From contig JANCIK010000001.1 in assembly GCA_028532985.1 (NCBI GenBank), positions 2,418,001 through 2,482,000 of the forward strand: a DNA stretch of 64,000 nt. Reading direction: 5' to 3'. A program made the position numbers and the translations under genes. Below, in pieces: positions 909-49,231 of this stretch. How positions within the stretch are numbered: the first letter of the stretch is position 1; each line of letters begins with the position of its first letter. Source of the stretch: Stropharia rugosoannulata (lineage: Eukaryota > Basidiomycota > Agaricomycetes > Agaricales > Strophariaceae). The notes under the pieces are model-generated. The model had not been told where the DNA came from. It did no database searches and was given only the letters and a program-made list of their open reading frames with translations.

Positions 909-2127
909 TGACAGGGCTGCTTTTTGGCTACGGGTGTAAACAGTCAGAAGGTCCATTAGTGGGATAGCTGCGCGCGGGAGAACACAGAGAGACTAGAGTT
1001 GAGCCTGACTCATAGTCTATAGCTATCAGCGCGCATCATGACTACAAGCGCCTGCGCGCACCTATTGTGAGAAGGATTGGGCAGCGAACTGTACAAGTTT
1101 TTAAAAAGTGCATAGCTTGGCCATCTGTGCGGGCAATTAGGTGTGCGTAGAACGGTTAAGCACCAGCCAAGTGCGGTGTGAGTACAGCTGAGCGAGTACC
1201 AAGGGCGGTGTGAAGGGCTGTGCGCGCATCTCATGTGCGCGCATCGCAAAGGTAGAAATTGCCTAAGTCCACACATCATGTGACCGTGGCGGCGCGCATC
1301 AAAAAGACGCGCAAAAGCCCGAGGGAACAAACGACATGCGCGCAGCGAATGCCAAGGGGATCAGGACACTCGAAGGGAAGCCCGGATGCGATGCGCGGAC
1401 CTTTGGCCGCGCGTTGCTAGTATTTACTTTACCTTATTATTAGTACACATGCGCGCATCGCATATAAACCTGTATCCTTGTCTATAGTAATTAAGCAATT
1501 GTCTACCCACTAGATCTGTGTGCTGGGTTCCGTCCCAGGCCGTCAGCGGGCTGTGTTTAGCTTTTGTTAGGGTTTTAACTGTGAAGTGTTTTGTGAATCA
1601 TAGGAGTTTTTGGATAGCTTCTGGCCACCGGGTCATTTGGAGAGCTCAGTGAGGAGTCAGTACAACCGTGTACGGAAACTCGCACTGTAGTGTTTTAGAC
1701 TGTGAGACTGCACCGCCGGGTGAAAGACTTTGGAGAGTCTTGGGATTATTGGACTTCGGAGAGTCCGCGCATCGTACGAGGTCACCGGACCCGGAAGTGC
1801 GCGCAGCGAAGCCGTTCGCTAAAACAACTTATTTCATTCATCATTTTGCCTAGTGCACGCCACTAGCAACCGGGCTCTATCCGAGATTTACTAGAATTAA
1901 ACCCCTCCTTACAAACGAACTTGCAGGCACTACTTGCTATTACAAAGACTAGAGGACACGAGGTGCGCGCATCGCACGCCCAGAACGGGAACCAGAGCAG
2001 AGCATAGATTATACTACCATTTAGTTGAGGGTGTTTGCTCGATCTAAGGGATAGGATCTCGCTCCGCTGGGTGTGTGTGTGTGTTGTGTTTCGCACTTTC
2101 GAGTCTAGCTACGCAGTAGACCTCTCA
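909..2127 (+). repeat. Gypsy-1 5' LTR
   Basis: 1219 bp, TG...CA. A TATAAA box lies at 1463-1468, directly after a GCGCGCATCGC motif. It differs from the 3' LTR by 14 substitutions, all transitions and about nine at CpG, plus about six 1-nt indels in short homopolymers. GCGCGCA occurs about nine times. No protein-coding gene is credible inside it. Confidence 0.95.
1463..1468 (+). promoter_or_regulatory. TATA box of the Gypsy-1 LTR promoter
   Basis: TATAAA in CGCATATAAACC, about 660 bp before the LTR end. The Gypsy-2 LTR has TATATAAA at the homologous place (21592), also just after a GC-rich motif, which supports it as the U3 promoter. The same box is present in the 3' LTR near 16195. Confidence 0.6.
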
Positions 2128-2129
2128 TC

Positions 2130-2146
2130 TGGAGCCCACCGCGAGG
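2130..2146 (+). other. Gypsy-1 primer binding site
   Basis: TGGAGCCCACCGCGAGG begins two bases after the LTR end. Its complement ends in CCA as a tRNA 3' end would. The Gypsy-2 copy (22335) is identical over this stretch. I cannot name the tRNA. Confidence 0.7.
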
Positions 2147-2206
2147 GGAAGGTTCAGAAATCTCATTTAGTGTTTCGGGAACTACGGCTTGCGCCTATTA
2201 CAATAA

Positions 2207-4264
2207 ATTACAAAAATTTCAAATAAAACGGGGACGAGTAATAAGCGAGGCAAATTTCCTGCGCCTTCATCGCTCGCCGAGCCAGAAGAAGCCAGACCAT
2301 CCTTTGGAACGGTGCCTTCACGCGAGAGAACCACGAGGAGCAAGAAAGACGCTGAGCTGGTAGAGCCGTTGGTAATTACACCGACGCGAGATAGAAAAGC
2401 AAAGAAAAGAGCGAGGGAGGAAGCGCAGTTGCAGATCGAGACTCAGGGATTAGCGCAGCGCATCCCAGGTGCGCTCACCGAAAGCGACTCGGAATCAAGA
2501 GTAGGGACTAGTGGATTTTGGGGACCACCATCTGGCATTGAATCAGAAGGCCAATTAGTGGACGGTGAGATTACCCTTGAAACCGCACCATTTGGTACTT
2601 CTGATAGCCAAGCTACCCAAGACACCCCTCCTCCATTCTCGGAAGTATTTGGGACTGCTAAGACATCCGCGCAGCGCACGGCGGAAAATAGCGAAAGTGA
2701 GGCAGAGCGTGTAGCGAGAGATATATTTGAAGGAGACTTGTCAGATCTCTCAGAAAGCGAACGAAATACACCCCCACGAGAATCAGAAACTATGCCTAAG
2801 GATATGTCCATGCCAGTACGCGGTGCGCGCGGCGCGCCGAGCTTCGATCCTGCTGCAGAGCGCGATGAGCTGCCACGGTACTTCGAGGACCTGGAGGATT
2901 GGTTTAAGTGCGCAGAGGTGACGGAGGACGATGAAAAGAGGGGATATGTAATAAAATATGTACCCATGCAGACGGCGGAGGAGTGGAAGAATTTACCAGG
3001 TTATGATACCAAGGGGTACGCGGAGCTCAAGAAAATGATTCTCAACGAGTACCCGGAGGTGATCAGCATTCAGACAGGGTCCATCGCGCGGCTCAAGAAG
3101 CTCTGCAAGGAGAATCAGCGCATCTCGGAGGAAGACCTCCAGGTGTTGCTGGACTTCAAGCGAGCATTCTTGGCCGAGGCAGCTAAGCTCACGAAGGCGC
3201 CTACCCTGCTCGCGAATCATACCTTGGTGACTTACTTCACCAATAGTCTCACTGCGGGGTTCAGGGATCGATTGTTTAATAAACTGGACATTGATTATAC
3301 GACGCGCGCATCGTTCGACAAGTTCTTGACTGAGCGCAATATACAGTTCACCGCACCTACTGGGGTGACGGTAGAAGCGCGCACCGAGGACATGTACCCT
3401 CTCAAACAAGTAGCCGAGATGGCGGAACAAATGGCCCGCACCAAGAACCCAAGCACTACGCTGAGCCTAGGGCGCAATAGCACTGATGGACTTATGCCGG
3501 TGCCCGCCATCAAGACTGAGGCTGCGGATGTTAGTTCGCTGCGCGGAGAGATTGAGGACCTGAAAGGGTTCGTCGCCTCCTTCAAGGATACCTTATCGTT
3601 AGTAGAGAAGACAGTGGCAAAGTCAAAGGAGTCGAGTAAGAAGGAATTAGAGGACATTATTCGCAATGTCATGGCTGCGCGCGCCGCACCGATGTCGGTG
3701 CCTGTACAACCAGTAGCCCCCATGATGCCCATGAGCGCACCGGGTTTCGGTGGACCGCCGCCTAGGCCTTTCCAATACCAACAACGCCCGGAGCCCCGTT
3801 GCTTCTACTGCAAGCAGACGGGACATGTGGTTGCTGAGTGCATCGTACGACAGCAAGACTTGTCAGCTGGAAGGATTGTCATCACAGAGGCGGGGCGCTT
3901 ACAGCTACCTGATGGGTCATCGATACCTTGGGACCCTTCGCGCGCGATTAAAGAATGCGTCGATAAATGGCATAAGAAGAACGGACAGCCCGCGCAGCAA
4001 GCGTATATGGCACCCGTCCATCCCTCGTACATGGGTATACCTCCTAGCATGGTATACTCGCAGATGTACCAACCGGCCAGTTCCTTGGACGAGACCTATG
4101 AGGAGCAGATACGCGCACTTCAGCAAGAGCTGGAGAGTAAGAAGGCGTTCCTGAAGGAGCGCGCATCGGCGAAGACGCCTGAGGAAGTGATAGAGGAACA
4201 GCGCCAGTTAATAGCGACTATGAAAGCCGAACGCGACGCTGCGCTCAGTCAGGGTTTCGATTGA
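2207..4264 (+). CDS. gag: Gypsy-1 Gag (capsid and nucleocapsid)
   Basis: Structural polyprotein that packages the element RNA. The frame is open from 2207 after a TAA, but its first ATG is only at 2792. The roughly 190 codons before it are clearly conserved in Gypsy-2 (22566-23000 region), so initiation must be non-AUG or depend on a spliced leader. Counting from 2312: an acidic N-terminal region; a retrotransposon-gag capsid-like domain (about residues 175-340, from SFDP...RYFEDLEDWF); a helical segment; a CCHC zinc knuckle C-x2-C-x4-H-x4-C near residue 497 (3800); and a coiled-coil C-terminus. It ends at TGA 4262-4264, three bases after the frameshift heptamer GGGTTTC (4252-4258). Confidence 0.85.
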   Translation: MTKISNKTGTSNKRGKFPAPSSLAEPEEARPSFGTVPSRERTTRSKKDAELVEPLVITPTRDRKAKKRAREEAQLQIETQGLAQRIPGALTESDSESRVGTSGFWGPPSGIESEGQLVDGEITLETAPFGTSDSQATQDTPPPFSEVFGTAKTSAQRTAENSESEAERVARDIFEGDLSDLSESERNTPPRESETMPKDMSMPVRGARGAPSFDPAAERDELPRYFEDLEDWFKCAEVTEDDEKRGYVIKYVPMQTAEEWKNLPGYDTKGYAELKKMILNEYPEVISIQTGSIARLKKLCKENQRISEEDLQVLLDFKRAFLAEAAKLTKAPTLLANHTLVTYFTNSLTAGFRDRLFNKLDIDYTTRASFDKFLTERNIQFTAPTGVTVEARTEDMYPLKQVAEMAEQMARTKNPSTTLSLGRNSTDGLMPVPAIKTEAADVSSLRGEIEDLKGFVASFKDTLSLVEKTVAKSKESSKKELEDIIRNVMAARAAPMSVPVQPVAPMMPMSAPGFGGPPPRPFQYQQRPEPRCFYCKQTGHVVAECIVRQQDLSAGRIVITEAGRLQLPDGSSIPWDPSRAIKECVDKWHKKNGQPAQQAYMAPVHPSYMGIPPSMVYSQMYQPASSLDETYEEQIRALQQELESKKAFLKERASAKTPEEVIEEQRQLIATMKAERDAALSQGFD
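4252..4258 (+). promoter_or_regulatory. -1 frameshift heptamer gag to pro, Gypsy-1
   Basis: GGGTTTC fits the X-XXY-YYZ rule in the gag frame (GGT TTC) and sits one codon before the gag stop. The next frame (-1) is the protease ORF. The identical heptamer lies at the same place in Gypsy-2 (36693-36699). I did not model a downstream stem or pseudoknot. Confidence 0.65.
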
Positions 4265-5538
4265 GTCTGATGAAGGGAAACGCGGGCAGAGTTATGCGTA
4301 GCGGCTCTGATAAACCCAAGAACCCGGAGGGCGCAAACAAGAAGTTACCGATCAAGAATATACCCAGAGCATCAGTTGAGGACGCGAGTGATGAGGAGGA
4401 AGATGAGTTGCGAGAAGTAGTGGAGGAGCAAGGTGCGCGCAGCGCACCCGTAAAGAAGAAAGTAGTGTTTGAGGTTCCTGCAAAGGCTGGGCCTAGTGTA
4501 CGACCAGCAGCAGTGCCATATGTAATGGTACCTCCGCTGCGCATACCAGAGAAAGTAAAACCTAAGGTTAGGGAAGAGCCCATACCTGTAGTAGAGAAGA
4601 GGAAGCCGGCCTATAAGCTGCGCGCACCTATCGAAGATGAGGCGCAGGCTGACGCAGTCCTCAAGCACTTAGAAAATCAGAAAATTGAGATCACGCAGGG
4701 CCAGTTGTTAGGCATCTCGACTGCAGGCTTTAGAAGAAAATTCGTTGAGCGCATAGTACCAAGAAAGGTACCATTGGATTTGAATACGATGCGCGTATTA
4801 CAACTAGACTACGATGAAGAAGAGCGTGAAGTAGATGAGGCTATCGCGCGGTTAGCATAGGAAGAAGAGGAAGAGGAGTTCATGCAGATGGATGAACTAC
4901 CAGTGGCCACTTTCCTTACTTGCTCAGATGAGCGCAGCGGGCTGCAACCGGGAACCATCATCATGGGAGACCTGTACGAACAGTACGTCTCGACTCTGCA
5001 GCCAGGCGAAAAGCCTAAGGGACTTATTGTGGCGCGCGAATCGCACCATCTGAAGGCGGTGTTTCCTCTCATCAACGGCAAGGGACACGCAGAGACGTTG
5101 CTCGACAGTGGGTCGCAGATTGTGTCAATGGCACAGGACACCGCTGAGCGCTTAGGACTTAGTTGGGACCCGGACTTCACTATACGGATGCAGAGCGCGA
5201 ATAAGCAGGTGGAATCCACCAAGGGCTTAGCGCGCAACGTACCGTTTGTGTTTAACGGGCTGACAGTGTACTTACAAGTACATGTCATTAGCGCGGCGGC
5301 TTATGAGGTACTCTTGGGCCGGCCGTTCGAGATCCTCACGGAGAGCAATGTGAAGACGCGCGGCGATGGAACGGTTGAGCTTACGCTCACCGATCCCAAC
5401 ACACAGCGCAAATTGGTAGTACCCACTTATAACCGAGGGTGCGGTCCCAAGATTGTGCAGCGCGAACCTAAGTTGCAGGACCCTGGCACAACGGAAAACC
5501 CTAACGCAGATCAGGATTTTCAATCCTCGATGAATTGA
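4261..5538 (+). pseudogene. pro: Gypsy-1 protease ORF, one in-frame stop
   Basis: Aspartic protease that processes Gag-Pol. It is read in the -1 frame relative to gag and has no good start of its own, so it is expected as a Gag-Pro fusion by frameshift. The first 200 residues are charged linker ending in an acidic run. The retropepsin active site LLDSGS is at 5098-5115 (Asp codon 5104), followed by the flap and a LLGRPFEI region. A TAG at 4858-4860 interrupts the frame where Gypsy-2 is open (CAG at the equivalent codon), so this copy is broken; the frame continues unchanged on the other side. It overlaps pol by a few bases. Confidence 0.85.
5514..5520 (+). promoter_or_regulatory. -1 frameshift heptamer pro to pol, Gypsy-1
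   Basis: GGATTTT is in register with the protease frame (GAT TTT) about 18 bases before the pro stop. The pol frame is -1 relative to pro. Its codons before the ATG at 5538 are conserved with Gypsy-2 (FS-I/V-LD-E/D-LMRQGE), which argues for frameshifting here rather than reinitiation. GGAUUUU is a known slippery sequence in some plant RNA viruses. Confidence 0.55.
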
Positions 5539-8500
5539 TGCGTCAAGGAGAGGTCGCGTTGATGTTTGACAGGGATGATCGCACGGGGAAAATAGAGATA
5601 GCGGGGTACGCGCTACCAAAGAATAAGAAGCGGTTTGGGAGCGCTGAGCTCAGGGATGTATACATGGCTCAAGCAGTACATGAAGCTAAGATGGAGGACA
5701 ATGAAAAAGAAAGAATATACAAATATTTTCAGCAGCGCGAATGGCGCAAGGAAGAAGTAGTCAAAGGGGAGCCTAGAGGGCAGTTCCGCGCATCGCACGA
5801 GGAACAGGTCCCTAGTAAGAAACAAGGAGTAACGCGTAAGCGCTTGACTGGCAAGAATGCCACAACCGTTACGGTGCTCGCAGGAAAGAAGTATAAGCCA
5901 GTGGCTGAGAAAGTCAGGCCCGTTTATCAAGATTTACCAGAGAAGTTTAGAATAGTGAGGGAGATAAAAGGAGACCCACTGAAGGACATGCCGCAATTGT
6001 CACCACATCCGCCAGACTTCGTACCTACAGGTCGGTACACCGCTGAGCGCATGGAAGGGATTGACAAGGCGCATGAAGGGGATTTCCTGTGGTCTGAGGA
6101 GCGCAAGTTGGTGCATCAAGTTTTCATGCAGCAGAACGAGGCGTTCGCGTGGGGTGACACAGAGAAGGGTAGATTCCGTACGGACTTCTTCCCTCCAGTA
6201 GACATTCCCACTGTGGAGCACACGCCTTGGGTATTAAAGAACATTCCGATACCACCTGGGATGTATGAGCGCGTATGTGAATTCATCGCCACCAAGATTC
6301 GCGCAGGCACGTATGAGCCCTCGAGCTCGTCGTACCGGTCGCGCTGGTTTACAGTGACTAAGAAAGACGGGGTCTCGTTCAGGATTGTGCACAGTCTTGA
6401 GCCGTTAAATGCGGTAACCATTGCACATTCAGGACTACCTCCAGCAGCGGAGAGTCTAGCGGAACACTTTGCGGGGCGCGCATGTGGCGGCATCCTGGAT
6501 TTGTATGTTGGGTACGATGAGCGGCTGTTAGCTGAGTCCTCTAGAGACCTGACTACATTCCAAACGCCGTTCGGTGCGCTGCGCTTAGTAACCCTACCTA
6601 TGGGATGGACAAACTCCGTGCCCATCTTTCATGAGGATGTCGCATATATATTACGCGATGAAATAACTGAAGTTACCGAGCCCTATATAGACGATGTACC
6701 TATTAGGGGACCTAAAACGCGCTACGAGTTAGAAGGAGGAGGATATGAGACGATACCAGAGAATAAGGGAATAAGGAGATTCGTATGGGAACACATGTTG
6801 AATGTCAACAGAATTGTGCAGCGCATGAAGTACTCAGGAGGAACATTTAGTGGAAAGAAGTCCATACTGTGCGCGGCTGAGATAGTAGTGGTGGGGCACT
6901 TGTGCACATACGAAGGGCGAAAACCAGCACCTGATAAAGTGCATGCAATCCTCAATTGGGGCCCATGCAAGAACATCAGTGATGTGCGCGCATTCATGGG
7001 TACAATGGGTCTGCTACGTATTTACATCTCAGACTATGCGAAGCGCGCAGAACACATACAGCGGCTATTGCGTGGGAAAGAGCCCTTTGAGTGGGGGCCC
7101 GCTCAGCAAGCTAGCATGGACTTGCTGAAAGACGGTGCGCGCAACGCACATTGCGTGAAACCACTGGACTACACATTGCCAGGGCCGATTACTTTGGCTG
7201 TAGACACATCATGGCGAGCAGTAGGATTCTATATTTACCAGCAGGACCCACAAGATTCGAAGAAGAGGGTATATGCGCGCTTCGGATCAATACTGTTAAC
7301 GGAACGCAAGCAGCGCTTCTCACAGCCCAAACGGGAGTTGTATGGACTCTTACGTGCGCTACAAGCCTGTTATTACTGGCTCATCGGTGTGCGCAAGCTG
7401 GTGGTGGAAACGGATGCCAAATACTTGAAGGGCATGTTGGAAAATCCGGGCATGGGCCCTAATGCGACTATTAATCGCTGGATAGATAAAATACTTATGT
7501 ATCACTTCCAGTTGAAACATGTTGCGGGCAAAACCTTTGGTGCGGATGGTTTATCGCGTAGGGAAGGGCAACCTGGAGATGAGGCGTACGCGCACTCCGA
7601 AGAAGATGATGATCAGGCGGTGGGACCGCTCGAATATGAGAAAGTCTATGAAGATGACCCAGATCCCCTGGACTTTGAAGAATTCAAAGAACAGATCGAT
7701 GATCGTGGTGGGTATCTATACACCGGATTCCTCAATGAGTTGTTTGAAGGTCCCACTGCGCGCAAGTTACCAGAAGCGCGCTCCATAGGCTGTTTCCAGC
7801 AGGAGCTCGAGCGCGCACGGAAAGAGACGGAAGCGGAAAAGCGGGCCGTGCGGGACTTCATACAGAAAGAGAGTGTGCCGCTCGCGCAGCGCGAGTACTT
7901 AGAGAAATTCATACTGGCGCATGCGATACCCGACTCCAGAATAGAGGATCTGGAGGATGAGGAATACGATGAGCGTAACAGGACGTCCGCTGGGAAAGAC
8001 ATGGATGAGAAATTGCCGATGATACGCTACTGGTTGCAGAATCCAACCACTAGGCCTAAAGGCATGACGGAGCGAGAATATCAGAATTTTACAAGGAATG
8101 CTCGCAACTTCTTCCTAGACAAGGATGGACGGATGTACCGGAGATCCATAGATGACGCGCATAAGTTGGTGATAGATCAGGCACAGCGGACACGCATGCT
8201 GCGCTCAGCGCATGACAGCTTGGGGCACAGAGGAGCGTACGCTACGCGCAAATTGCTAGCTGAGCGCTTCTGGTGGCCTGAGTTGGAAAGGGATGTCTAC
8301 TGGTATGTGAAAACATGTCATGTCTGTCAGTTAAGGCAGAAGACGATCATCCAGATCCCGCGCACCGAGACACACACGCCGTCTATCTTTCAGCAACTAC
8401 ACGCGGACACTATGCACATGTCCCCGGCCTCCAATGGGTATAATTACATAGTGCACGGAAGATGTGCGCTGAGCTCATGGGCGGAAGGGCGGCCGTTAAA

Positions 8501-9473
8501 GAAAGAGAATGCCCGTGCAATAGCGCAGTGGATATTCGAGGACATTATCTGCCGTTGGGGCTGTCTGCAAGAAATCATCACAGATAACGGTGGACCGTTC
8601 CGCGCAGCGCTCAAGTATTTAGAAAAGAAGTATGGGATTACAGGGATTACTATCTCCGCGTACAACTCGCAAGCCAATGGAAAAATAGAGCGTCCTCATT
8701 GGGACATAAGACAGATGTTGTGGAAAGCGTGTGGAGGGACAGAAGGCGCGCACAAGCGTTGGAGTAGATTCTTCTACCATGTGTTGTGGGCGGATCGCAT
8801 CACTGTGTGACGAGGATTTGGGTGTTCCCCATTCTTCATGGTGACGGGCGCACACCCCATACTACCGTTCGACATAGCAGAAGCGACTTGGCTGGTGAAA
8901 CTACCAGATCGCGTACTGACTACGGAGGAGTTAGTGGGGTATCGCGCGCGCACACTAGCCAAACATCGCGACACAGTAGAGGAGATGCGCGCACGAGTAT
9001 CAAAGACGAAAAGAGATGCGATCAGGGCATTTGAAAAGAAGCATTCGGCTAAAATCCGTGACTATGTGTTTAAGCCAGGAGATGTAGTGCTAATGAGGAA
9101 CTCGGGCATAGAATCCAGTCTGAACCGTAAGATGCTCGCACGATGGAACGGGCCTTACATCGTTATTGCACGAAAAGACGGTGGAGCATACTTAGTGGCA
9201 GAGATGGACGGCTCTGTGTTGAAGGATAAGGTGGCGGCGTTCCGCCTCATTCCCTACTTTGCACGAAGGCAGCTGCGCTTACTGGAAGGCTTGGATGATA
9301 TAATTGATCAGACCAAGGAGAACCTCGCTAAAATGTTAGAGGCGCCGGATTACGAACCAGCGATTCCCAAAGATTATATCTTTGATGAGCCCAGTGTACC
9401 CTCGGGTAGCAGTGCGCTTACAGTGGAAGAAGATGAAGAAGACGAGGATGACTGGGGCGAAGAAGACACTTAG
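5517..9473 (+). pseudogene. pol: Gypsy-1 Pol (RT, RNase H, integrase), one in-frame stop
   Basis: Polymerase and integrase of the Ty3/gypsy type. Order: linker; reverse transcriptase with LDLYVGYDE and the catalytic YIDD (6684-6695); RNase H (about 7190-7560, with VETDAKYLKGML and VAGKTFGADGLSRR); integrase zinc domain H-x-H...CHVCQ (about 8209-8330); DDE core with Asp 8406, Asp 8583 and Glu 8688; then a GPY/F module (RWNGPYIVIARK, near 9145) and an acidic tail. I see no chromodomain. A single TGA at 8808-8810 interrupts the frame. The codon is followed by CGA, and the position suggests a CGA-to-TGA CpG transition; the same frame continues to 9473. RT-RH-IN order places it in Ty3/gypsy. Confidence 0.9.
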
Positions 9474-9501
9474 ATGTGCGAGCACCGTAGGAAGAAAAGT
9501 G

Positions 9502-9526
9502 ACCACAATATAATATATTGGGTAAA
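9502..9526. terminator. Conserved AT-rich element between converging pol and gene D, Gypsy-1
   Basis: An ACCACAAT...AATATATTGGGTAAA block lies in the 127-bp gap between the pol stop and the stop of antisense gene D. It is almost identical in Gypsy-2 (41926-41950) although the flanks differ. The palindromic AATATATT could serve 3'-end formation on both strands. This is inferred from position and conservation only. Confidence 0.4.
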
Positions 9527-9600
9527 GAAGATGGGGAATACAAAGAGAGCTAACTACAGACGCCCCTTTAAGGCGCGCAGCGCACATTGAGCCAGGCTAT

Positions 9601-10918
9601 CTACTGGGCCGGTTTGTCCTCGGTGGCAGTAACGCCAGTAACGTCGAGGCTGCGCTGCAAGATGACAAGCTGCTCGACGAGGAGTGCGCGGCGCTTGAGG
9701 ATGAAATCGACCTTGTGGAGATCACAAATGATCTCTGCTTGTAAATCACCAATGAGACGGCGCGTCACCAACTCGGAAGGGTTACCCGTGTTAAGGGGCT
9801 CCTTAAGGAGGTTAGCGGCGGCATCAAGACAAGCATTGACCTTGTCATTGTCCAAAACGAGAGAAGTGCCTGAGGGAGAAAGGTTAGAAAAGATTAGTAA
9901 GAGAACGGTGCGATGCGCGCACCTTGCATAATAAAAGGAGAGTCGGGGAACGTAGGAACGCCCTCTGAGCCCAGCCTGGCTTTCTTAGGAGAGGCTTCAC
10001 CCGCGGCGGCGTCACGGAATGAGCGACGAAGCTCGGTCTGACGATAAGTCATGCCTCGACCAAGGGGACGAGAGCGGTAACCAGGAGTGTCTCCGCGCTC
10101 GCGCTGGTATTTCTATAAGAATCTAAGTGCGCGCAGCGGAGACGGGTCAAACACACACCTGTTTAGGAGTATCAGGAGGCGCGGCGCGCTTCTTGTTAGG
10201 GCTCGGCTCGGGTGTATGTTGCCTGCTGGGAGGACCTCCCTCAGTCGCGGCTTCAACTTTATCGTCGAGGGCCATCTTTTTGAGGAGCATGTAAAGTTGC
10301 ATGTTAGTGATGTCTGGTAAAGAAACCAAGGTTAGCCACACCTTGTCATCGTCAGAGTCAGGAGATGTAGTACCTCCAGGCGCGGAGGCGGTCTCAAGGT
10401 CCGCAGTTGCAGAACGCGTAAGAACGCGAACGTTGCGCTGCACGCACCAAAAAGGGGATTAAGTATAAAAAGGGTTAGGAGAGGAAGATGAACATACCGG
10501 TCCAGTAGGGGTATGGGTGCGCTGACGAGAAGCGGCAGCCTTGGCCTTGAGGACTTGTTCATGCAAGTTGATAAATGCATTGGCGGCAGGGGAGAAGGAG
10601 CGAATGTGGTGGTCAGCCTCGAGCAACGTATATATGGCTCGAGTCTCATTGAGTATCTCGATAGCCTCATTGTTGTTTATAACGCGAGTGATACCGCCGT
10701 GCGCGTTGCGCCAGCGGTTCTGCAATCGTGCCAGACGAAGTCAGTAACATACAACAAAGGGAACCGCGCGATGCGCGCACCAAATCGACAGCAAGCAGCT
10801 CCAGGCTGCCGGTGTAATTCGCAGGAGTGGCAGAGGCCAACCCACGAATGTCCTGGATCAGTGAGAGTTGATGCTTGACATTGGTGAAGTTAAACAGAGG
10901 AGCATGAGTAGTAGCCAT
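9601..10918 (-). CDS. Gypsy-1 antisense accessory protein D (about 365 aa)
   Basis: Spliced gene convergent with pol; no family recognised. Exons: 10918-10781, 10719-10498, 10437-10159, 10112-9923, 9869-9601. Phases agree and all introns are GT-AG; four introns match Gypsy-2. The protein is largely helical: an N-terminal block (FNFTNVKHQL...DIRGLAS), a middle block (NETRAIYTLLEADHH), a Ser/Pro-rich segment with EPSPNKKRAAPP (basic, possible nuclear signal), and a highly conserved C-terminal block (LNTGNPSELVTRRLIGDLQA). A TATATAAAA lies about 60 bp upstream (10977-10985). Within exon 3 a 45-nt segment that is an intron in Gypsy-2 has lost its acceptor (CAG to CAA) and reads through in frame. 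Conservation against Gypsy-2 argues that it is a real protein. Confidence 0.8.
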
Positions 10919-36699: not shown

Positions 36700-36701
36700 G
36701 A

Positions 36702-37979: not shown

Positions 37980-40900
37980 TGCGTCAAGGAGAGGTCGCGT
38001 TAATGTTCGAGCGGGATGATAGCACTGGAAAGATAGAGATAGCGGGGTATGCGTTGCCAAAGAATGGAGGGAGATTTGGCTCCGCTGAGCTGAGAGATGT
38101 GTACATGGCTCAAGCTGTGCACGAGGCTAAGATGGAGGATAAAGAGAAAGCATCAATTTATAAGTACTTTCAGCAAAAAGAATGGCGAGAAAAAGAGACG
38201 GTGAAAGGCGAGCCGAGGGGGCAATTCCGCTCAGCGGACCCCGAGCAAAGCCAGTCAGCGCGGAAAGGAGTAACTAGAAAGCGGTTAACTGGTAAAAATG
38301 CCACTACGGTAACCGTCTTTGCAGGAAAGAAATATAAGCCGGTCGCTGACAAGGTCAGACCCGTTTACCAAGAGCTACCAGAGAAATTCAGAATAGTGAG
38401 AGAGATAAAGGGGGATCCGCTGAAAGAAATGCCTCCGCTGAAGGTACACCCACCAGAGTTTGTACCCACGGGAAGGTACACAGCGGAGCGGAAGGAGGAA
38501 ATAGATAAAGCGCACGGAGGAGACTTCCTGTGGCCAGAGGAGCACAAGCTAGTACATCAGGTGTTCATGCAGCAGAATGAGGCGTTCGCGTGGGATGACA
38601 CGGAAAAGGGGAGGTTTAGAACAGACTTCTTCCCGCCGGTAGATATTCCAACGGTAGAACATACGCCGTGGGTACTGAAAAATATACCCATTCCGCCAGG
38701 CATGTACGAGCGGGTGTGCGAGTTCATCGCTACTAAGATCCGCGCTGGGACTTATGAACCATCCAGTTCATCATACCGGTCGCGCTGGTTCACAGTAACA
38801 AAGAAAGACGGGGTGTCCTTTAGAATCGTACATAGCTTAGAGCCGCTGAACGCTGTTACCATCGCGCACTCAGGATTGCCACCGGCAGCGGAGAGTCTGG
38901 CGGAACACTTCGCTGGGCGTGCGTGCGGCGGAATACTGGACTTGTATGTCGGCTACGACGAGCGACTCTTAGCGGAGTCGTCTCGCGACTTGACAACATT
39001 CCAGACACCGTTTGGTGCGCTCCGCTTAGTAACCTTACCAATGGGCTGGACCAATTCTGTACCCATCTTTCATGAAGATGTGACTTATATTCTCTGCGAT
39101 GAAATACCAGACGTCACGGAGCCGTACATTGACGATATGCCTATCCGCGGACCGAAGACACGGTATGAATTAGAGGATGGAGGGTACGAGACGATTCCAG
39201 AGAACAGCGGAATCCGGCGCTTCGTATGGGAACACATGCAGAACGTGAATAGGATAGTTCAGAGGATGAAGTACTCAGGAGGGACTTTCAGCGGAAAGAA
39301 ATCCATATTATGTGCAGCGGAGATTGTGGTGGTGGGACACTTATGTACCTACGAAGGTCGAAAGCCAGCGCCAGATAAAGTGCACGCTATCCTCAACTGG
39401 GGACCGTGTAAGAATGTCAGCGATGTGCGCGCCTTCATGGGTACGATGGGGCTCCTGCGTATTTACATCTCAGACTACGCTAAGCGAGCGGAGCACATAC
39501 AGCGATTGTTGCGTGGGAAAGAACCCTTCGAGTGGGGGCCAGCGCAGCAAGCCAGTATGGATGCACTGAAGGATGGAGCGCGGAACGCACACTGTGTCAA
39601 GCCGCTGGACTATACACTGCCAGGACCGATCACGCTGGCAGTAGATACGTCTTGGCGCGCTGTAGGATTTTATATCTACCAGCAAGATCCGCTGAACGCG
39701 AAGAAGCGTGTGTACGCCCGCTTTGGGTCAATTCTGTTAACTGAGAGGGAACAGCGGTTCTCACAACCAAAGAGAGAGCTATATGGGCTATTGCGAGCGC
39801 TGCAGGCGTGCTATTACTGGCTCATCGGAGCGCGGAAGTTGGTAGTGGAGACGGATGCCAAATATCTCAAAGGGATGTTGGATAATCCGGGCATGGGACC
39901 TAACGCTACCATTAACCGCTGGATAGACAAGATCCTTATGTACCACTTTCAGCTGAAGCATGTAGCAGGCAAAATGTTTGGCGCGGACGGCCTGTCGCGA
40001 CGAGAAGGACAACCAGGAGATGAAGAGTATGAGCACTCAGCGGAGGATGATGACCAAGAAGTAGGTCCGCTGGAGTACGAGAAAGTGTATGAAGAGGATC
40101 CCGATCCGCTGAGTTTAGAAGAGTTCAAGGACCAGATTGACGACCGCGGAGGATATCTGCAAGCTGGATTCCTCAACGAGTTGTTTGATGGTCCCGCTGA
40201 GCCAGCTAGAACGGAGGCACATTCGGTTGACTGTTTCCAGTTGGAACTGGAGCGGGCGAGAAAAGAGACGAGAGAAGAACAGTGGACAGTGCGTAACTTC
40301 CTACAGACAGAGGAGGTGTCGCCCGCTCAGCGGGCGTACTTAGAGAAATTTGTTCTGGCACATGTAATTCCAGAGTCAAAGATAGATGAGTTGGAAGACG
40401 AAGAGTACGATGAGCGGAACCGAACGTCAGCGGGAAGGACATGGATGATAAGCTGCCAATGATAAGGTATTGGCTGCAAAATCCCAGTACAAGACCCAAG
40501 GATATGAGCGAGCGGGAGTATCAGAATTTCATCCGTAACGCACGAAACTTCTTCTTAGACAAGGATGGGCGGATGTACCGGCGCTCAGTGGACGAGGCAC
40601 ATAAACTAGTAGTTGATCCCGCTCAGCGGACGCGTATGTTGCGTGCCGCGCATGACAGTCTGGGGCACAGAGGCGCATACGCCACGCGCAAACTGTTGAT
40701 GGAGCGCTTCTGGTGGCCAGAGCTGGAGCGGGACGTCTACTGGTATGTCAAGACATGCCATGTGTGTCAGCTAAGGCAAAAGACGATCATCCAGATTCCG
40801 CGGACAGAGACACATACGCCTTCCATCTTCCAGCAGCTACACGCGGACACTATGCACATGTCACCTGCCTCAAATGGGTATAACTACATAGTGCACGGAC

Positions 40901-41904
40901 GGTGTGCGCTGAGCTCATGGGTGGAAGGTCGTCCGCTGAAGAAAGAGAATGCAAGGCGATAGCGCAGTGGATGTTTGAGGATATTATCTGCCGCTGGGGA
41001 TGTCTTAGAGAGATAATCACAGATAACGGTGGACCGTTCCGCGCAGCGCTCAAGTACTTAGAAAAGAAGTATGGTATTACAGGGATTACCATCTCAGCGT
41101 ACAACTCTCAGGCGAACGGAAAGATAGAGCGGCCCCATTGGGACATCAGACAAATGTTGTGGAAAGCGTGTGGTGGTACCGAGGCGCACATAAGCGCTGG
41201 AGCAAGTTCTTCTACCATGTGCTGTGGGCGGACGCGTTACAGTGCGCCGCGGATTTGGGTGTTCACCCTTCTTCATGGTCACTGGCGCGCACCGATACTA
41301 CCGCTGGACATCGCTGAGGCGACGTGGCTGGTCAAGTTACCAGATCGCGTACTTACCACAGAGGAGTTAGTAGGGTATCGTGCGCGCGCCAAAGCATAGG
41401 GACACAGTGGAGGAAATGCGTCAGCGGGTGTCAAAGATAAAGCGGGATGCTATCAGAGAGTTTGAGCGAAAACACTCCGCTAAGATTAGGGACTATGCGT
41501 TCAAACCTGGCGATGTCGTACTGATGCGTAACTCTGGCATTGAGTCCAGCTTAAATCGCAAAATGTTGGCGCGCTGGAATGGACCATACATTGTCATCGC
41601 GCGGAAGGAAGGAGGCGCTTATCTAGTCGCTGAGCTGGATGGGTCGGTGCTGAAAGACAAAGTCGCAGCATTCCGTTTAATACCCTACTTTGCCAGGCGT
41701 CAGCTAAAGCTGCCAGCGGACTTAGACGATATCATTGATCAAACGCGCGAGAACCTCAACAAGATGATGTCAGCGCCAGACTACGAGCCGGCCATACCTA
41801 AAGACTACATCTTTGATGAACCAGGAGTGGTTTCAGGCAGTGGCCAAGTCTCAGCGGACGAAGAAGATGATGATGAGGATGGGTGGGCGGAGCCCAATGC
41901 TTAG
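37958..41904 (+). pseudogene. pol: Gypsy-2 Pol (RT, RNase H, integrase) with clustered frameshifts
   Basis: RT (YIDD at 39124-39135), RNase H and the start of the linker are open to about 40430. The frame then breaks near 40433, 40955, 41181, 41236, 41285 and 41388, mostly by single-base losses relative to Gypsy-1, and is open again from 41389 to 41904. Despite the breaks the integrase residues are all still there: CHVCQ near 40757, Asp 40846, Asp 41022, Glu 41127, and RWNGPYIVIARK near 41574. The C-terminus is acidic as in Gypsy-1. Such clustering in about 1 kb of an otherwise clean, young element is odd: either recent decay of this segment or consensus errors in the assembly. Confidence 0.85.
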
Positions 41905-42024: not shown

Positions 42025-43340
42025 TCACTGTGGCGCGGGCTCCTCAGCGGGGCTGGTCCCTGTCAAATCCAAGCTGCGCTGTAAAGTCTCTAACTCTTTA
42101 ACGAGCAGAGCGCGGCGCTTTAGGATGAAGTCAATCTTGTGCAAGTCACAGATGATCTCAGCTTGCAAGTCTCCGATGAGACGGCGAGTGACGAGCTCGG
42201 ATGGGTTCCCCGTGTTCAGCGGTTCCTTAATGAGGTTGGTAGCAGCGTCGAGACAGGCATTGACCTTGTCGTTCGAGAGAGTAAGATTGGTACCTAAAAG
42301 AAAATGAAAGAGCTCAGCGGACGCAACAGAGAAGAATAAGGGCAAAGAGCGCACCTTGTACAATGAAAGGAGAATCAGCGAAAGTAGGAACGCCGTCAGC
42401 GCCGAGACGGGCCTTCTTAGAGGAAATGTCGTGGAACGGTGTGTCGCGCGGAGAGTGCCGGTTGTCAGAGGAGCGGAGTGTCATGCCGCGGCCAAGCGCA
42501 CGAGTGCGATGTCCGCTGGCCTCAGTGCGCTCCCGCTGACATAGAAGTAAGAAAGTAACGAGGGAGGGAAGACGCAACAGAACGAACCTGACGAGGAGTG
42601 TCGGGAGGAGGCGCTGAGCGCTTCTTCGAAGGACTAGGTTCTGGGGTATTCTGGCGGCTAGGTACTCCGCCCTCAGTGGCAGCCTCGATCTTGTCATCGA
42701 GGGCCATCTTTTTAAGGAGGAGGTACAGCTGCATGTTAGTAATATCTAAAAGGGTGAAGGAAGTCAGTCACACCTTGTCGTCATCAGAATCGGGGGAGGA
42801 GGTACCTCCAGGGGCAGAGACCGTCTCAGGATCGGCAGCGGAGCGCGAGAGGAGGCGAACGTTGCGCTGAGCGGACGGTTAAAAGGATAAAGAGAGGCAG
42901 CAAGCACACAGCGTACGGGTCCAGTGGGAGTATGCATGCGCTGGCGCGAAGCAGCGGCTTTCGCTTTTAAAACTTGCTCATGCAGAGTGATAAAAGCGTT
43001 GGCAGCGGGAGAGAAAGTGCGGAAGTGGTGATCCGCCTCTAAGGAGGTGTAGATGGCACGCGTCTCGTTGAGAATATCAACAGCCTCGCTGTTATTAATG
43101 ATACGAGTAATGCCGCCGTGGGGATCACGCCAGCGGTTCTAAAAAAGTTCGAGTGGTCAGCGGAGTAAACGACCCAGCGGACCAGCTGAGTGTTGTGCGT
43201 ACTAAGTCAATAGCCAGAAGCTCGAGGCTCCCGGTATAGTTGGAAGGCATGGCGGAAGCCAAGCCTCTGATATCTTGGATTAATGCCAGCTGGTGCTTGA
43301 CATTACTAAAGTTGTACAGTGGAGCGGGTGCGTTGGACAT
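42025..43340 (-). CDS. Gypsy-2 antisense accessory protein D (about 347 aa)
   Basis: Six exons: 43340-43203, 43138-42917, 42866-42774, 42728-42588, 42535-42355, 42293-42025; total 1044 nt, phases consistent. Homologue of 10918-9601 in Gypsy-1 with the same order of blocks (VKHQLALIQDIRGLAS; NETRAIYTSLEADHHF; SPDSDDDK; LLLKKMALDDKIEAATEGG; NTGNPSELVTRRLIGDLQA). The third intron is only 45 nt (GTGTGA...TACTAACATGCAG) and contains a stop, so it must be spliced here, whereas Gypsy-1 retains it. TATATATA lies at 43377-43384, about 40 bp upstream of the ATG. Several introns contain CAGCGG or CCGCTG motifs. Function unknown. Confidence 0.8.
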
Positions 43341-43780: not shown

Positions 43781-44325
43781 TCAAACATCCTGACATAATC
43801 TGGGTCTCAGCGCAGCGGAGAAGGAAGAGAAAAGGGGACAGACGGGGAAGAAGTCCTCCTGGTAAAAATGCTGGGCGGCATAATGGAGGCGTTGAAAGTG
43901 TTCGGTGTGATTAAGGATGCCGTAGCGCTCAGCGTCGTTGGTACCACACAGACGTAGCACAAGTTCGGTGTAATACAGCTGAGCGCAGAGATGAGAAAGA
44001 AGCGGTGAATGACAGGTGGACTCGGTCAGCTCTAGGCCGCGCTGCGCGGACTACTCAGTGGGAGCGCATGGTCAGCGGAGAATGGGCTTACAGCGTGATC
44101 TTGAACTCGGTTAAGCAGCGGGAGACAGACACTCATGGGTAGCTGTTCCTCCGCAGCGGAGTCCAGAATGTAGTGAAGGGCAGTTACATAGATCCGGCAG
44201 ACCCGGGCTACATCGTGAGGAGGAATGTCGCTTAGCGGACGACGGGACAAAGCATCGAGACGAAGGATGCGAGGATCGGAATGGGCACGTAATAAGAGAT
44301 TACTCTCAGTGGACAAGGAGGGCAT
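43781..44325 (-). CDS. Gypsy-2 antisense accessory protein C (about 164 aa)
   Basis: Two exons, 44325-44092 and 44041-43781. Exon 1 is exactly as long as in Gypsy-1 (234 nt). The intron carries CCGCTGA (the Gypsy-2 motif) where the Gypsy-1 intron carries its own motif. The protein shares RVCRIYVTALHYIL, LCAQLYYTELVLRLCGT and DAERYGILNHTEHFQ with Gypsy-1; its C-terminal tail is longer. An AT-rich TATATTATATA stretch lies about 30-40 bp upstream. Function unknown. Confidence 0.8.
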
Positions 44326-44394: not shown

Positions 44395-44867
44395 CTAATC
44401 AGAGCACACGTCGTCTACGATGAGCGCGGCATCAGGGTCCACTTCTTGAACATCGGCTGCAATTCGCTCAGAAGAAGGCAGCAGATGGAATGGCATGCCC
44501 AGATGACTGTATCGGTCGAGGACGCGTAAGGCGGCATTACTGAGTAGGCGTGGGTCGAAGTGATCATCGCTGAACTTCCGCTGAGCGCGGGCCTCGTAAA
44601 ACACGATGGTCATGAGAAACGCCAGAAACTGGCGATTAAAGTCAATGAATCTCAGCGGGAGAGCAATACGGTCCTGTGGAGATGGTCAGCGGAGTAGAGT
44701 CTAAGGGACAGGGGCATTACCAGTGCGCGGACAACGGCCTGGGCGGACTGTAATGGCAGGTGGGCTGTTGTTTCAGCGGAGTCTTCTGTGATTTCCGCGT
44801 GGACGGCCAGCTGCTTGAGGATCGTGGTGAACTGGCGGGCGACATTCGTGCGCTGGTAGCGTTGCAT
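44395..44867 (-). CDS. Gypsy-2 antisense accessory protein B (about 141 aa)
   Basis: Exons 44867-44721 and 44673-44395; exon 2 has the same length as in Gypsy-1 (279 nt). Starts MQRYQRTNVARQF; conserved FIDFNRQFLAFLMTIVFYEARAQRKFSDDHF and LLSNAALRVLDRYSHLGMPFH; acidic tail VDPDAALIVDD. TATAAA about 50 bp upstream, inside the internal PPT-like module. No domain recognised. Confidence 0.8.
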
Positions 44868-45319: not shown

Positions 45320-47391
45320 TCAATCCCTGTCCGCGGGAACCTCGTCGGCATCAACCTCGCTGGGGACGCGAGAGGAGGAAAGAGGAGGGGGTCGGCGCTG
45401 CGGTGTCGGACGAACGGACGCGGGGGCAGGGGGCGCAGAAACCGAGACCTTGGTGGTGGAAGAAGAGGCAGCGGGAACAAGGGGTGGCGGCGGCCCAGAG
45501 GAAGCGGAGGAAGAGGCGGTGGGACCCTCTGCAAGCACAGCGGGGGTCCGCTCAGCGGCCAGCTTCTTGGCAGAGCGCCGTTTCTTCTTCTTCTCCTCAG
45601 CGATGAGGGTATCGGCCTCGCTGGCCTGACGAACGGCGGCCTCCTCAAACTCTTGTGACTCCAGAGCGTTAAACGCTTCTAAGGTAATCGCCTGGTCAGC
45701 TTGAGGGGAAGGGATAAATGTCGAAGGATCATAACGCGGAAACTGGGGATCATAGAACTTCGCCAGCGGGCGGCGACAGCAGGATCTTCATATGAGGCGG
45801 GGGCAGAGGAAACGATAAGCCTCTTGAAGTTGGTCGAGGTCCATTCGCGCAGCGCATCGAAAGTCTCGCAGTCTCAACGAGGGCCAACAATTATGCCGGT
45901 GGGGAGCGTCAGAGCCATAGCGCGCGCCAACTGAACGAGTTCAGTAAGTTGGGCGAAATATAAGCGCTCCGCTGAGCGACGCTGCTCCTCCGCGGCACGC
46001 GCTTGCTCGGTATAGGCGCTCAGGCGCGCGAAACCGGAAAGAAGACCTAGGAGAAAGAAAGAAATAAGTAATGAAGGACAAAAATAAATAAATAGGAACT
46101 TACTGGTTAACGATGTGCGATGCCAGAGGGTGGTGTCCTCAATCGCCTTGTCGAGCTCCGCTGGTTCGCAGCAGAACAGACATTTGCCCTTCTGTTGACT
46201 ACTGCAAGTGCAGCAGTTACGAGCCCACCCTCGACAGATGCACTGGTGCAAGCCCTCGTTCATACGGGCATTGAACGGGCGCGCGCAGTGATTGCATACC
46301 ATCCCTTTCTAAAAATAAGAAATAAGTACAGTCAGCGGAGAGGAGAAGAAATAAAGCACTCACTATAATGGCGCCTTGCAGACGGTTCTCAGCGGGGAGG
46401 GCATCCATGCCAATAGCGTCGGGAAGGGGCGCGCCAGCGAGAGCCAGCTTAGCGGAGTAGACAGGGGGGAGCACATTCAATACCGGGTAGGTGGACTTAT
46501 AAGCGACTTTGTTGCTGTCAGCCCGTGTAATGACGATCTCCTCTATCCCGCTGTCGGTAAGGAGCGACGAAGCCCCAGCGCTGGGACGGGCGGGAAAGGA
46601 TGAGGGCTCGGGAGAAGCGCGGTCGGCCATTTCAGCTGAGAAAAGAATAGTGAGGTGATAGACAAAAGAAAAGGAAGAATAAATAAAAGTCACGTACCCG
46701 CGATGGCCGCATTTGCAGCAATAGCGGCCTGGCGAGAGCGCTTGGGGGGCTTGTCCGCGGGAGGAGCCAGACTAACGATGGGAGGGGATGGAAGGCGTTT
46801 GCGCTTGTCTTTGCGTACTACGGGCGGAGGAGAAGCCGCGCGCTCGTCTTCAGGGTCAGAAATCATAATAATGTCGTCGTCCGGGAGGTTGAGACCTGCC
46901 AGAGTGGCCACGGGAGGAGTCACAGCGGGAGGTACGACAGTGAGAGGGCCAGGACGGAGAGAAGGGATTGCGGTACCGTCCCACTGGGTAGGGAACGCCG
47001 TCTTGAAAAACTCACAGTAGGAGGCAAGAGGCGAGTAGCCCCCTGTGAACCACAGCTTCTGATGGTGATTGGCGGCCAGCGCGGGGTCGTCTCCGTCTTG
47101 CATCTCCGCGATGCAGGAGAGGATAATGCATAGTTCGCGAACGCCGGAGTGATAGAGCCCATCGGAGGCGTGCACGGAAAGGTGTTGCTCAACGCTGTCT
47201 GTGATGAGAGCGCGAAGTTCCTCCAAGCGGGCAAAGCTCTCTTCGGAAGGGGCAGCGGACCCAGCCAGCTGTTCGAACTCATCATATACGGCCAACACTG
47301 GGCGGAGGCGGCGGAATCGATCGGCCTGGTCGAGCTGGGCTTCAACGCGCTCTTTCTCGCGCTGGCGACGGTCGAAGTTTCGGAAGGCCAT
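45320..47391 (-). pseudogene. Gypsy-2 antisense accessory protein A, Cys-rich; C-terminal frame broken
   Basis: Exons 47391-46698, 46635-46364, 46308-46104, 46046 onwards, with the last three introns matching Gypsy-1; the first Gypsy-1 intron is absent. Conserved parts: RRLRPVLAVYDE; a Pro-rich segment with RKDKRKRLPSPP and PPKRSR (possible nuclear signals); YKSTYPVLNVLPPVYSAKLA; the Cys-rich finger in exon 3 (Cys 327, 330, 345, 347, 354, 355, 357, 365, 368 with His 329 and 343); and a coiled coil (ARAAEEQRRSAERLYFAQL). A TGA at 45874-45876 and a nearby frame change interrupt the last exon, after which the frame is open again to 45320. TATAAA lies about 90 bp upstream. The finger spacing CxxC-x-RP...RxC differs in detail from Gypsy-1. 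Confidence 0.7.
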
Positions 47392-47780
47392 GAGTACTAG
47401 AGAGGATAGTGGGGCAGGGGGTCTGCAGGAAGGGAGGGAAAAGAAAGAATGGGGAGGGATAGAAAGCAGTACGCGATGTTTATAAGACAGAAGTTCGCTC
47501 AGCGAAAGAATTTTCTGGAAGATAAAATAACGGGTGGCGGCGTCACATAAACTTTCAGGTAATCTACATGGAGAGCGGCGGTTCAGAAGCGACGGTGCAA
47601 TGCTAAAAAGGGGAAGGAATATCCTTAAACGGAGGAAGAACCAGATAACAATGGAAGTAACCAGCGGAGACGACTGAGAACTAAAAATAGGCAAATAGGC
47701 GCCGGGGAAGCTGGAAATAGAAAATGAGGCACTAAAAGTGCACGCGGGACAGTACTAAGGTCTAAAAATACAGGAGGAGC

Positions 47781-47818
47781 TTGACTGAGGACAGTCAAAA
47801 TTTTTAGTGAAGGGGAGA
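47781..47818 (+). other. Gypsy-2 3' polypurine tract with inverted repeat
   Basis: TTGACTG-AGGA-CAGTCAA (47781-47798), T-rich spacer, then GAAGGGGAGA abutting the LTR at 47819. Confidence 0.85.
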
Positions 47819-49231
47819 TGACAGGCCTGCGTTTACACCAAGGCTGTAAGTGGCCACAGCGGGCGGTTTGGGCTGGAGTGCAGGGGTACAGCGGAGCGGT
47901 GACTAGCCTGGTCAGCCGTCTCAGCGCTCAGCGCGTGCATCACAAATCATCACGCGTGTGCTCAGCGGGCGGTTGTGTGGGGTTCAGCGGACTGTACAGG
48001 CCATAAGTACACAGCTGAAGTACCTGGAATAGCAGTCAGCGGGGCACATAACGGTTACTGCCGTCCCAGCGGAAGGCAGGAGTACAGCTGAGCAGAAAGT
48101 ATCAAAGGCGACGAGCAGGACTGTGTGTAGACGGCGTCTCAAAGGGACTCAGCGGAACACATCACGAAGGCGAAATTTGCCTAAGTCCACTCGTCAGGTG
48201 ACCGTGGCACGCGCGCTGGAGCGTGTGATGCCCGAAGGAATAAACAACGCACACAGCACGGGCTCCGCTGGGGAACTTTGGCAGCAGTAACCAGGCCTCG
48301 ATGACCAAGACGGAACCGCCCAGCGGAGTTTAACAGTGGCTCTCGGCGGAGGCTGGTAACACAACAGGATCAGGTCGCGCTCAGCGGAGTAGCCATCAAG
48401 GTGCCCAGCGGAGGCACATGCGCTCAGCGGACCTTTGGTCCGGCGTTGCTAGTATTTACTCTCCACCTAAATTAGTACACAACGCGCGTCTATATAAACT
48501 TGTAATTGTAACTACGGAAATCAAGCAATTGTCTACCCACTAGATCTGTGTGTTGGGCTCCGTCCCAGACTGTCAGCGGGCTGTGTTTAGCTTTTGTTAG
48601 GGTTTTACTGTGAAGTGTATTGTGAATTATAGAAGTTTTGGATAGCTTCTGGCCACCGGGTCATTTGGAGAGCTCAGCGGGGAGTCAGTGCAACCGTGTA
48701 CGAAAACTCGCGCTGTAGTGTTTTGAGAATTGAGACTGCACCACCGGGTGAACGAGGTTCTGGATAGCCTCAGCGGAATAGGACTTTGGACAGTCCCAGC
48801 GGAACGACTTTGAATAGTCAGCGGAGCGAGGCACAATTGGGAATACCAGCTTGTGTGAGCATCTGCATCGGTCACCGGACCTCAAACCCACTCAGCGGAA
48901 TAAGCCCCGCGGAGCCACCATCAAAACTATACCTTACTATCGATACCCTGCGCTCAGCGGAGGTCGCCCAGACATTAATCTGAGACTTCTAGAATTAAAC
49001 CCCTCCTTAAAAACGAACTTGCAGGCACTGTACAGCGGACATCTGGACGAAACTTACGAGACCCTTAAACATCACGATCCGCTCAGCGGAGAGGTACCAG
49101 GAGAGCGTAGACATCTATAACCCGCTTAGTTGAAGAGCGTCGTTCGATCTAGGTGATAGGATCTCGCTCCGCTGGGGTTGTGTGTGTTGTGTTTCTTGTG
49201 ATTCGAGTCTAGCCCCGCGGCAGACCTCTCA
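47819..49231 (+). repeat. Gypsy-2 3' LTR
   Basis: 1413 bp, same length as the 5' LTR, four substitutions noticed (three at CpG). 22 occurrences of CAGCGG/CCGCTG counted by eye; about 0.7 would be expected by chance in this length at equal base use. Confidence 0.95.

Follow-up and report, generated by a model that had tools for sequence, protein, structure and literature searches.

Two Ty3/Gypsy elements in the genome of Stropharia rugosoannulata, Gypsy-1 (G1) and Gypsy-2 (G2), are each saturated with a short motif of their own: the palindrome TGCGCGCA, frequently followed by TCGC, in G1 and CAGCGG in G2. Both lie in the window that we analysed, a stretch of 64,000 nucleotides (C1:2418001-2482000) from an assembly of 20 contigs and 48 Mb, where G1 occupies positions 909-16856 and G2 positions 20920-49231, the latter interrupted by a 12.2-kb insert. 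Each has long terminal repeats (LTRs) and a gag-pol on the + strand, with RT_RNaseH and integrase H2C2 in Ty3/Gypsy order, and each carries four spliced genes, A, B, C and D, on the - strand between pol and the 3' LTR. A third family carries a third motif, so that three labels coexist in one genome. We have little doubt that each motif is a genuine label, specific to its family and under selection.

The saturation is independent of composition. When each segment was compared with 100 dinucleotide-preserving shuffles of itself, CAGCGG occurred 22 times in the G2 LTR (shuffle mean 1.0, maximum 4), 49 times in gag-pol (4.4, 9) and 42 times in the accessory region (4.9, 12); its counts in the LTR, gag-pol and accessory region of G1 (2, 8 and 6) all fall inside the shuffle range. 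The G1 core TGCGCGCA is found 7, 6 and 10 times in the same three segments of G1 (shuffle means 0.1-0.2, maxima 1-2) and in none of those of G2, and CTCAGCGGA reaches 32 copies in the window, where 0.62 are expected and the largest shuffle gave 3. An earlier note, made from the sequence alone, had put about 22 CAGCGG in the G2 LTR and about two in that of G1, had put about nine GCGCGCA in the G1 LTR and none in that of G2, and had called CAGCGG dense across gag, pol and the accessory introns of G2. Our counts bear these figures out (22 in the G2 5' LTR, 20 on the + strand and 2 on the - strand; 2 in G1; 9 GCGCGCA on the + strand of the G1 5' LTR and 0 in G2), and the densities far exceed both dinucleotide composition and the codon-shuffle null described below. 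Only k-mer statistics were used, as an expectation-maximisation motif finder with unlimited site number drifted to poly-A/T in several long regions; the 3' LTR of G1 entered the computations 2 bases short.

The motifs also lie in exons, on both strands, and within the accessory regions their density is higher outside exons than inside (9.6 versus 5.7 per kb for CAGCGG in G2; 9.7 versus 1.0 per kb for GCGCGCA in G1). One could suspect an artefact of GC- or CpG-rich sequence or of repeat slippage, given that CpG is part of both motifs and that GC content is higher in the elements than in their flanks. Composition, dinucleotide content and codon usage were rejected as causes by the dinucleotide and codon shuffles, and the reversed-pattern genome controls and the selective site conservation reported below argue in the same direction. 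Tandem duplication was likewise rejected: a repeat scan found no tandem arrays of the motifs, and their spacing in the G2 LTR is irregular, at 19-171 bp. We therefore give an artefact almost no credence. Whatever the mechanism, the saturation is clear-cut and quantified, and no composition model that we tried accounts for it.

The motif is kept by selection on the DNA, on top of selection on the proteins. We drew 1000 codon shuffles in which protein sequence and codon usage were held fixed. The coding pieces of G2 hold 45 CAGCGG against 8.5 in the shuffles (maximum 17) and 16 TCAGCGGA against 1.7 (maximum 7), while those of G1 hold 6 TGCGCGCA against 1.0 (maximum 5) and 24 GCGCGCA against 5.9 (maximum 17). 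Within 2580 nt of pol, CAGCGG reaches 8.3 in G2, where the maximum of the codon null is 5.9; GCGCGCA in G1 reaches 5.8, over the 95% level of 5.0 and under the null maximum of 6.4. Constraint on the sites is also seen among copies. In the non-CpG columns of 30 G2-type LTR copies, the minor-base fraction is 0.0038 in the 22 motif sites and 0.0255 elsewhere, a roughly seven-fold difference that none of 1399 circular shifts matched. The difference is smaller in 29 accessory regions (0.065 at the motif, 0.104 elsewhere; 41 of 3262 circular shifts as low).

Few sites are shared between the two families. The LTRs of G1 and G2 have conserved blocks in common, and their motif-rich stretches barely align. 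Six of the 119 CAGCGG sites of G2 are CAGCGG at the aligned G1 position, and in gag-pol 3 of 49 sites are kept, versus about 10 expected by simple multiplication from 77% nucleotide identity. We also observed that GCTCAGCG, a piece of the G2 motif, is over-represented in the gag-pol region of G1 (2128-9473; 7 versus 0.4, shuffle maximum 3), which may mark a motif intermediate between the families. In old copies the CpG observed/expected ratio falls to 0.41, with CAGCGGA turning into CAGCAGA; many such replacements are seen in the decayed copies L052 and L057. This decay indicates that the elements meet a process resembling methylation or repeat-induced point mutation (RIP), so that protection would pay.

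Family specificity holds in the copies examined, that is, in accessory regions, in whole-genome counts and in the third family. From 95 B-gene hits we fetched 29 accessory regions of the G2 lineage (L031-L059), one G1 region (L060) and four among the most divergent B genes (L061-L064). TGCGCGCA is absent from all 29 G2-lineage regions, 28 of which hold 12 to 29 CAGCGG; the most decayed, L057, holds 9. The G1 region has 3 CAGCGG and 8 TGCGCGCA, and L064 has GCGCGCA. L061 and L062 are low in CpG (0.48 and 0.41) and carry the CpG-decayed G1 motif 14 times each, versus means of 1.4 and 1.0; these are both-strand counts, which are doubled for palindromic patterns in divergent copies and serve only as contrasts. 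The second half of L063 is overlaid by the third family. Genome-wide, TGCGCGCATCGC occurs 404 times and its reversed-pattern control once, CTCAGCGGA 1471 times against 280, and TATACCGGGYTAA, the motif of the third family, 185 times against 1. Among the first 100 listed places of TGCGCGCATCGC, 86 lie close to B-gene hits or inside G1 LTR hits that were listed, 9 are in LTR-like triplets and 5 are isolated. The first 100 listed places of CTCAGCGGA comprise 79 that are clustered and 21 that are isolated, and the reversed control predicts about 19 over the same stretch.

The third family emerged when the G2 reverse transcriptase served as query; the relatives listed were G2-like at about 98% identity, G1-like at about 90% and distant at 57-61%. 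Four distant groups, here called X, Y, Z and W, were sampled by one copy each (L065-L068), and the contrast of X with the others is accordingly one of single copies. Family X (L065, with an LTR in L063) bears TATACCGGGYTAA and the variant AAGCGGGYTA; its LTR in L063 has 9 CGGGYTAA inside about 550 bp. X also carries a set of antisense open-reading frames (ORFs), one of them cysteine-rich. Homology of these proteins to A-D was considered and found unsupported, and one strong profile score was discarded because the profile included the X sequence itself. In Y, Z and W, every word in the 2580 nt of pol stays within the 95% level of the codon null.

These families bear on the possibility that the motifs are binding sites for host proteins (a transcription factor, insulator or silencing factor) that were gained or are impossible to lose. 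LTRs commonly employ host factors, and a host reader would make an accessory protein unnecessary. However, three families would need three host readers, the motifs of G1 and G2 being mutually exclusive and X having a third, and Y, Z and W show no such word in pol. We consider host sites improbable.

The accessory proteins offer a closer candidate. A is the least conserved of the proteins compared between G1 and G2: in the parts compared, its exons are 38, 46, 40 and 63% identical, against 72% for B, 70% for C, 83-86% for D, 87% for gag and 88% for pol. The genes were defined through ORF matches between G1 and G2 and GT-AG intron models, in which several D introns are approximate, as is the end of A in G2. 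In G1, A (13017-15095, - strand) has exon 1 at 14727-15095, exons at 14238-14676 and 13883-14178, a cysteine exon at 13617-13827 and a helical exon at 13017-13555; the bounds 13827 and 13616 were picked by conservation rather than by top splice score. In G2, A (45874-47391, - strand) has exon 1 at 46698-47391, an exon at 46364-46635, the cysteine exon at 46104-46308 and the helical exon from 46046, and the frame of the window copy stops at 45874.

In the two classes compared, motif class goes with the cysteine and helical exons rather than with exon 1. Within the CAGCGG class the cysteine exon, mostly recovered as fragments, is 77-100% identical to that of G2, and within the GCGCGCA class it is 76-90% identical to that of G1; between the two motif classes identity is 29-44%. 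Exon 1 behaves differently. Six of eight other copies of the CAGCGG class are 55-67% identical to G2 in this exon, L004 is 98% identical and L006 is 75% identical over part, its remainder seeming unrelated; exon 1 of L061, L062 and L064 is 44-53% identical to that of G1. LTR windows of the CAGCGG class are 86-100% identical, while 150-nt windows over A in those six copies drop to 0.31-0.78, mostly 0.5-0.7. Exon 1 thus varies without a change of motif. The idea that protein A and motif type diverge together, raised in the earlier note, agrees with the cysteine and helical exons in the only two classes comparable, and disagrees with exon 1, the part that changes fastest.

A has the look of a hypervariable cassette, with about five alleles, mostly of 50-70% DNA identity, beside the 3' LTR in L002, L004, L007, L011, L018, L022, L023 and L025. 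Such diversity in elements with so similar LTR windows points to exchange between lineages or to diversifying selection. Different alleles carry the motif at different sites: seven copies with about five A alleles have 29 distinct aligned CAGCGG sites, 16 of them in a single copy and one in six copies. The exon-1 ORFs of six of these seven together hold 19 motifs, versus a codon-shuffle mean of 7.6 (maximum 16). An excess at differing sites across alleles suggests that the label is re-created as the gene diverges.

We propose that each basidiomycete Ty3/Gypsy family bears its own self-recognition motif, held by selection at the DNA level, and that A, which the element itself encodes in antisense, most likely reads it, probably as a dimer. 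The cysteine-cluster and helical exons would contact the DNA and dimerise, and motif specificity would sit there, in keeping with the association described above. The hypervariable N-terminal exon would act as an effector, probably meeting a variable, fast-changing factor of the host. Bound along the whole element, A could mark copies of its own family and counteract host silencing, of which the CpG decay of old copies would be a trace. From the sequence comparisons, we think it probable that A reads the motif. Anti-silencing as the outcome is suggested by analogy with VANC proteins, discussed below, and is more tentative; it may be correct, and we lean slightly to doubt. The combined reading, in which A binds the motif DNA of its own family and counteracts silencing, is the one we favour, although we would give it a little less than an even chance. 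We are more hesitant about the general form, in which labels written by the element over LTR, introns and coding DNA would be read by its own antisense protein with a DNA-reading part that tracks the label and a host-facing part that diversifies.

Several results weigh against this proposal. Motif CpGs are kept no significantly better than other CpGs (P about 0.10), and the exon-1 ORFs of L007 (1 motif) and L011 (0) show no excess over codon shuffles. The parts of A-D that we scanned have no Pfam match at the curated cut-off, and parts of A compared with solved structures gave no match at a usable E-value. The AlphaFold model of the cysteine exon is unusable (predicted local distance difference test, pLDDT, 45.6), and that of exon 1 (pLDDT 65.2) has no Foldseek match at E <= 0.001. 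In family X, the antisense proteins have no significant sequence similarity to A-D, and the motif is not above the codon null in pol, where the only word just above it, ATGACA (4.7 versus 4.6), is unrelated to the X motif. Moreover, the best 8-mer scores in single 6-kb stretches are as high in Y, Z and W (z 8-12) as in X (z 8-10). The best 8-mers form local clusters in Y (three pairs) and Z (two groups of three within about 35 bp), W has only 3-4 copies of its own, and those of X are dispersed. Beyond pol the 8-mer scores are less clean, so the case for X draws more on its LTR and its genome-wide count than on L065 by itself.

A search of A against 5.8 billion proteins, in which the 7989 best candidates were scored, gave none at E <= 0.001; we judged the collection poor in fungi and give this little weight. 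The cysteine exon shows the pattern C-x2-C ... C ... C-x2-C ... C, a spacing unlike that usual for Zn2Cys6, and even with an E-value limit of 10 its Pfam matches do not include Zn_clus (PF00172).

Many fungal transcription factors have a cysteine cluster with a helical segment behind it. A could thus activate transcription from the element's own LTR and accessory promoters and play no part in anti-silencing, and the constraint on sites is indeed highest in the LTR. Promoter activation would not need some 50 sites across gag-pol or the 40 or so of the accessory region, numbers above the codon null, and we regard self-activation alone as unlikely. Recognition of the own family could also serve another purpose, such as choice of integration site, control of copy number or immunity against insertion into the element's own copies. 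If copies are recognised as targets, a label that covers the entire element and its coding DNA makes sense; the hypervariability of exon 1 fits a conflict with a host factor better, and other purposes of this kind seem improbable to us.

The shape and the orientation of the motif point in different directions. By hand count of self-complementary positions, TGCGCGCA is a full palindrome, CTCAGCGGAG matches at 8 of 10 positions and TTATACCGGGTTAA at 10 of 14; the consensus, palindromic in G1 and near-palindromic in G2 and X, suits a dimer on double-stranded DNA. Yet CAGCGG is oriented in non-coding DNA, 20:2 in the G2 LTR and 18:2 in the accessory non-coding DNA, which is unexpected for a symmetric dimer site and must be added to the points against A as a dimeric reader of DNA. 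If the label is read by A, its orientation would call for a polar step in the reading, and nothing like such a step appears in the passages on VANC of PMC5735166 and PMC10398659. Orientation expectations from an order-2 Markov model were not used, because the motif itself shapes the background and the comparison would be circular.

Alternatively, an accessory protein could read the motif on the sense genomic RNA and act in packaging, nuclear export or stability, much as the CERV protein described below does in RNA export. The orientation runs along the element regardless of gene strand, including accessory DNA whose genes are antisense, and it recurs in part of the X LTR (TACCGGG 6:1, GCGGGYTA 4:0) and for CGCGCATC in the G1 LTR (7:1). 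The G1 core is, however, perfectly palindromic, CGCGCATC is unoriented in the G1 accessory region (4:5), and the 30:15 orientation of gag-pol in G2 is no stronger than that of the codon null (6.3:2.3). Gag, besides, has a CCHC knuckle of its own, which in G1 scores just under the Pfam cut-off. We consider reading at the RNA level rather unlikely, and it is chiefly the oriented motif in non-coding DNA that keeps it under consideration.

The earlier note had likened the system to the VANC anti-silencing proteins of Arabidopsis VANDAL transposons, among which VANC21 recognizes the motif YAGTATTAY and VANC6 the motifs AGTTGTCC and AGTTGTAC, according to passages of PMC5735166 and PMC10398659. The likeness survives in part. 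As in VANC/VANDAL, the motifs are short, specific to a family and different between related elements of one genome, and the divergent accessory protein A has a variable part; in G1 and G2, old copies also show methylation-type decay. Unlike VANDAL, a Mutator-type DNA transposon, G1 and G2 are fungal LTR retrotransposons, and unlike VANC targets, described as tandem in the passages of PMC5735166, their motifs are dispersed, also lie in coding DNA above the codon null and are often oriented. Exon 1, in addition, is uncoupled from the motif. With no Pfam match in A-D, the likeness rests on the pattern of motifs and not on a direct comparison of A with VANC, and the system appears VANC-like in motif specificity yet is not a member of that group.

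Other systems share single features. Plant Retand Gypsy elements have antisense ORFs between pol and the 3' LTR, as G1 and G2 do, with a TRP28 domain thought to bind DNA and with family-specific tandem repeats (PMC11963269). In G1 and G2 the genes are multi-exon, the motif is short and dispersed, and the parts of A-D scanned match neither TRP28 (PF04195) nor a dioxygenase domain. Dioxygenases of the TET/JBP type, carried by DNA transposons of Agaricomycetes and other fungi, are a proposed enzymatic counter to methylation, and PMC12730594 reports that none was found in retrotransposons, which leaves room there for another counter-measure. The CERV protein of Cer1, an LTR retrotransposon of C. 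elegans, is needed for export of genomic RNA (PMC10309623), and thus resembles our proposal of an accessory protein acting on its own nucleic acid; the beginning of that abstract mentions no saturating motif. Titles and abstract beginnings of mostly non-subscription papers gave no account of such a motif pattern in fungal LTR elements.

If the proposal is correct, LTR retrotransposons of fungi evolved, independently, a sequence-specific self-recognition of the kind known from DNA transposons of plants. It would extend into coding DNA, where selection on the label can be measured against selection on the protein. A genome that has some 30 accessory regions in one label class, about 60 further B-gene hits assigned by similarity to the other, and a third family would then allow direct tests of how mobile elements distinguish self from non-self and how a reader is retargeted.

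The remaining features of G1 are as follows. The 5' LTR (909-2127, + strand) contains the 7 TGCGCGCA and 9 GCGCGCA counted above, and the 3' LTR (15642-16856) differs from it by 14 substitutions and few indels; ACGC is present at either side of the element. Gag-pol (2207-9473, + strand) has a broken frame in the window copy, and its ORF pieces are those put to codon shuffling. On the - strand follow D (9601-10918), a multi-exon gene modelled with GT-AG introns, some approximate, then C (11448-11966) and B (12037-12517), each of two exons. Candidate introns of the antisense genes with the donor GTGCGC lie at 9922, 10780, 11732, 12379 and 13616 (- strand), and in C the candidate donor is inside a motif; the motif may double as part of splice donors in these genes.

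G2 begins with a 5' LTR at 20920-22332 (+ strand) and ends with a 3' LTR at 47819-49231 that also has 22 CAGCGG and differs by 4 substitutions. The internal region ahead of the insert (22333-23207, + strand) holds 6 CAGCGG; gag-pol (35444-41904, + strand) holds 49, of which 45 are in the ORF pieces used for codon shuffling. D (42025-43340, some introns approximate), C (43781-44325) and B (44395-44867) are on the - strand. The insert, at about 23208-35443, has 10-bp terminal inverted repeats (GTCGGAAACT/AGTTTCCGAC), a CpG ratio of 0.56 and a 22-bp tandem repeat; a Pfam scan of its three ORFs gave no match.

In the distant families, GCGCGACT occurs in Y as three pairs about 26 bp apart (L066 reverse complement, 4991-5726) and TCCTACGA in Z as two groups of three (L067 reverse complement, 5196-5236 and 6040-6080). 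These words may be no more than local repeats, or they may mark a further motif at its start. A polypurine tract and an LTR-like start within about 0.4 kb of the end of pol appear to leave no room for an accessory region in Z. Around the element pair, an inverted duplication joins 89-908 and 16855-20913 to 60682-61501 and 56630-60687, with a reported complementarity of 100%; G1 interrupts only one of its arms, and G2 starts where that arm ends. To the right of G2 lie a KOW/Spt5-like ORF (49269-50498) and a Plavaka transposase ORF (51940-53625), the latter, like the short introns, pointing to a basidiomycete of agaricomycete type.

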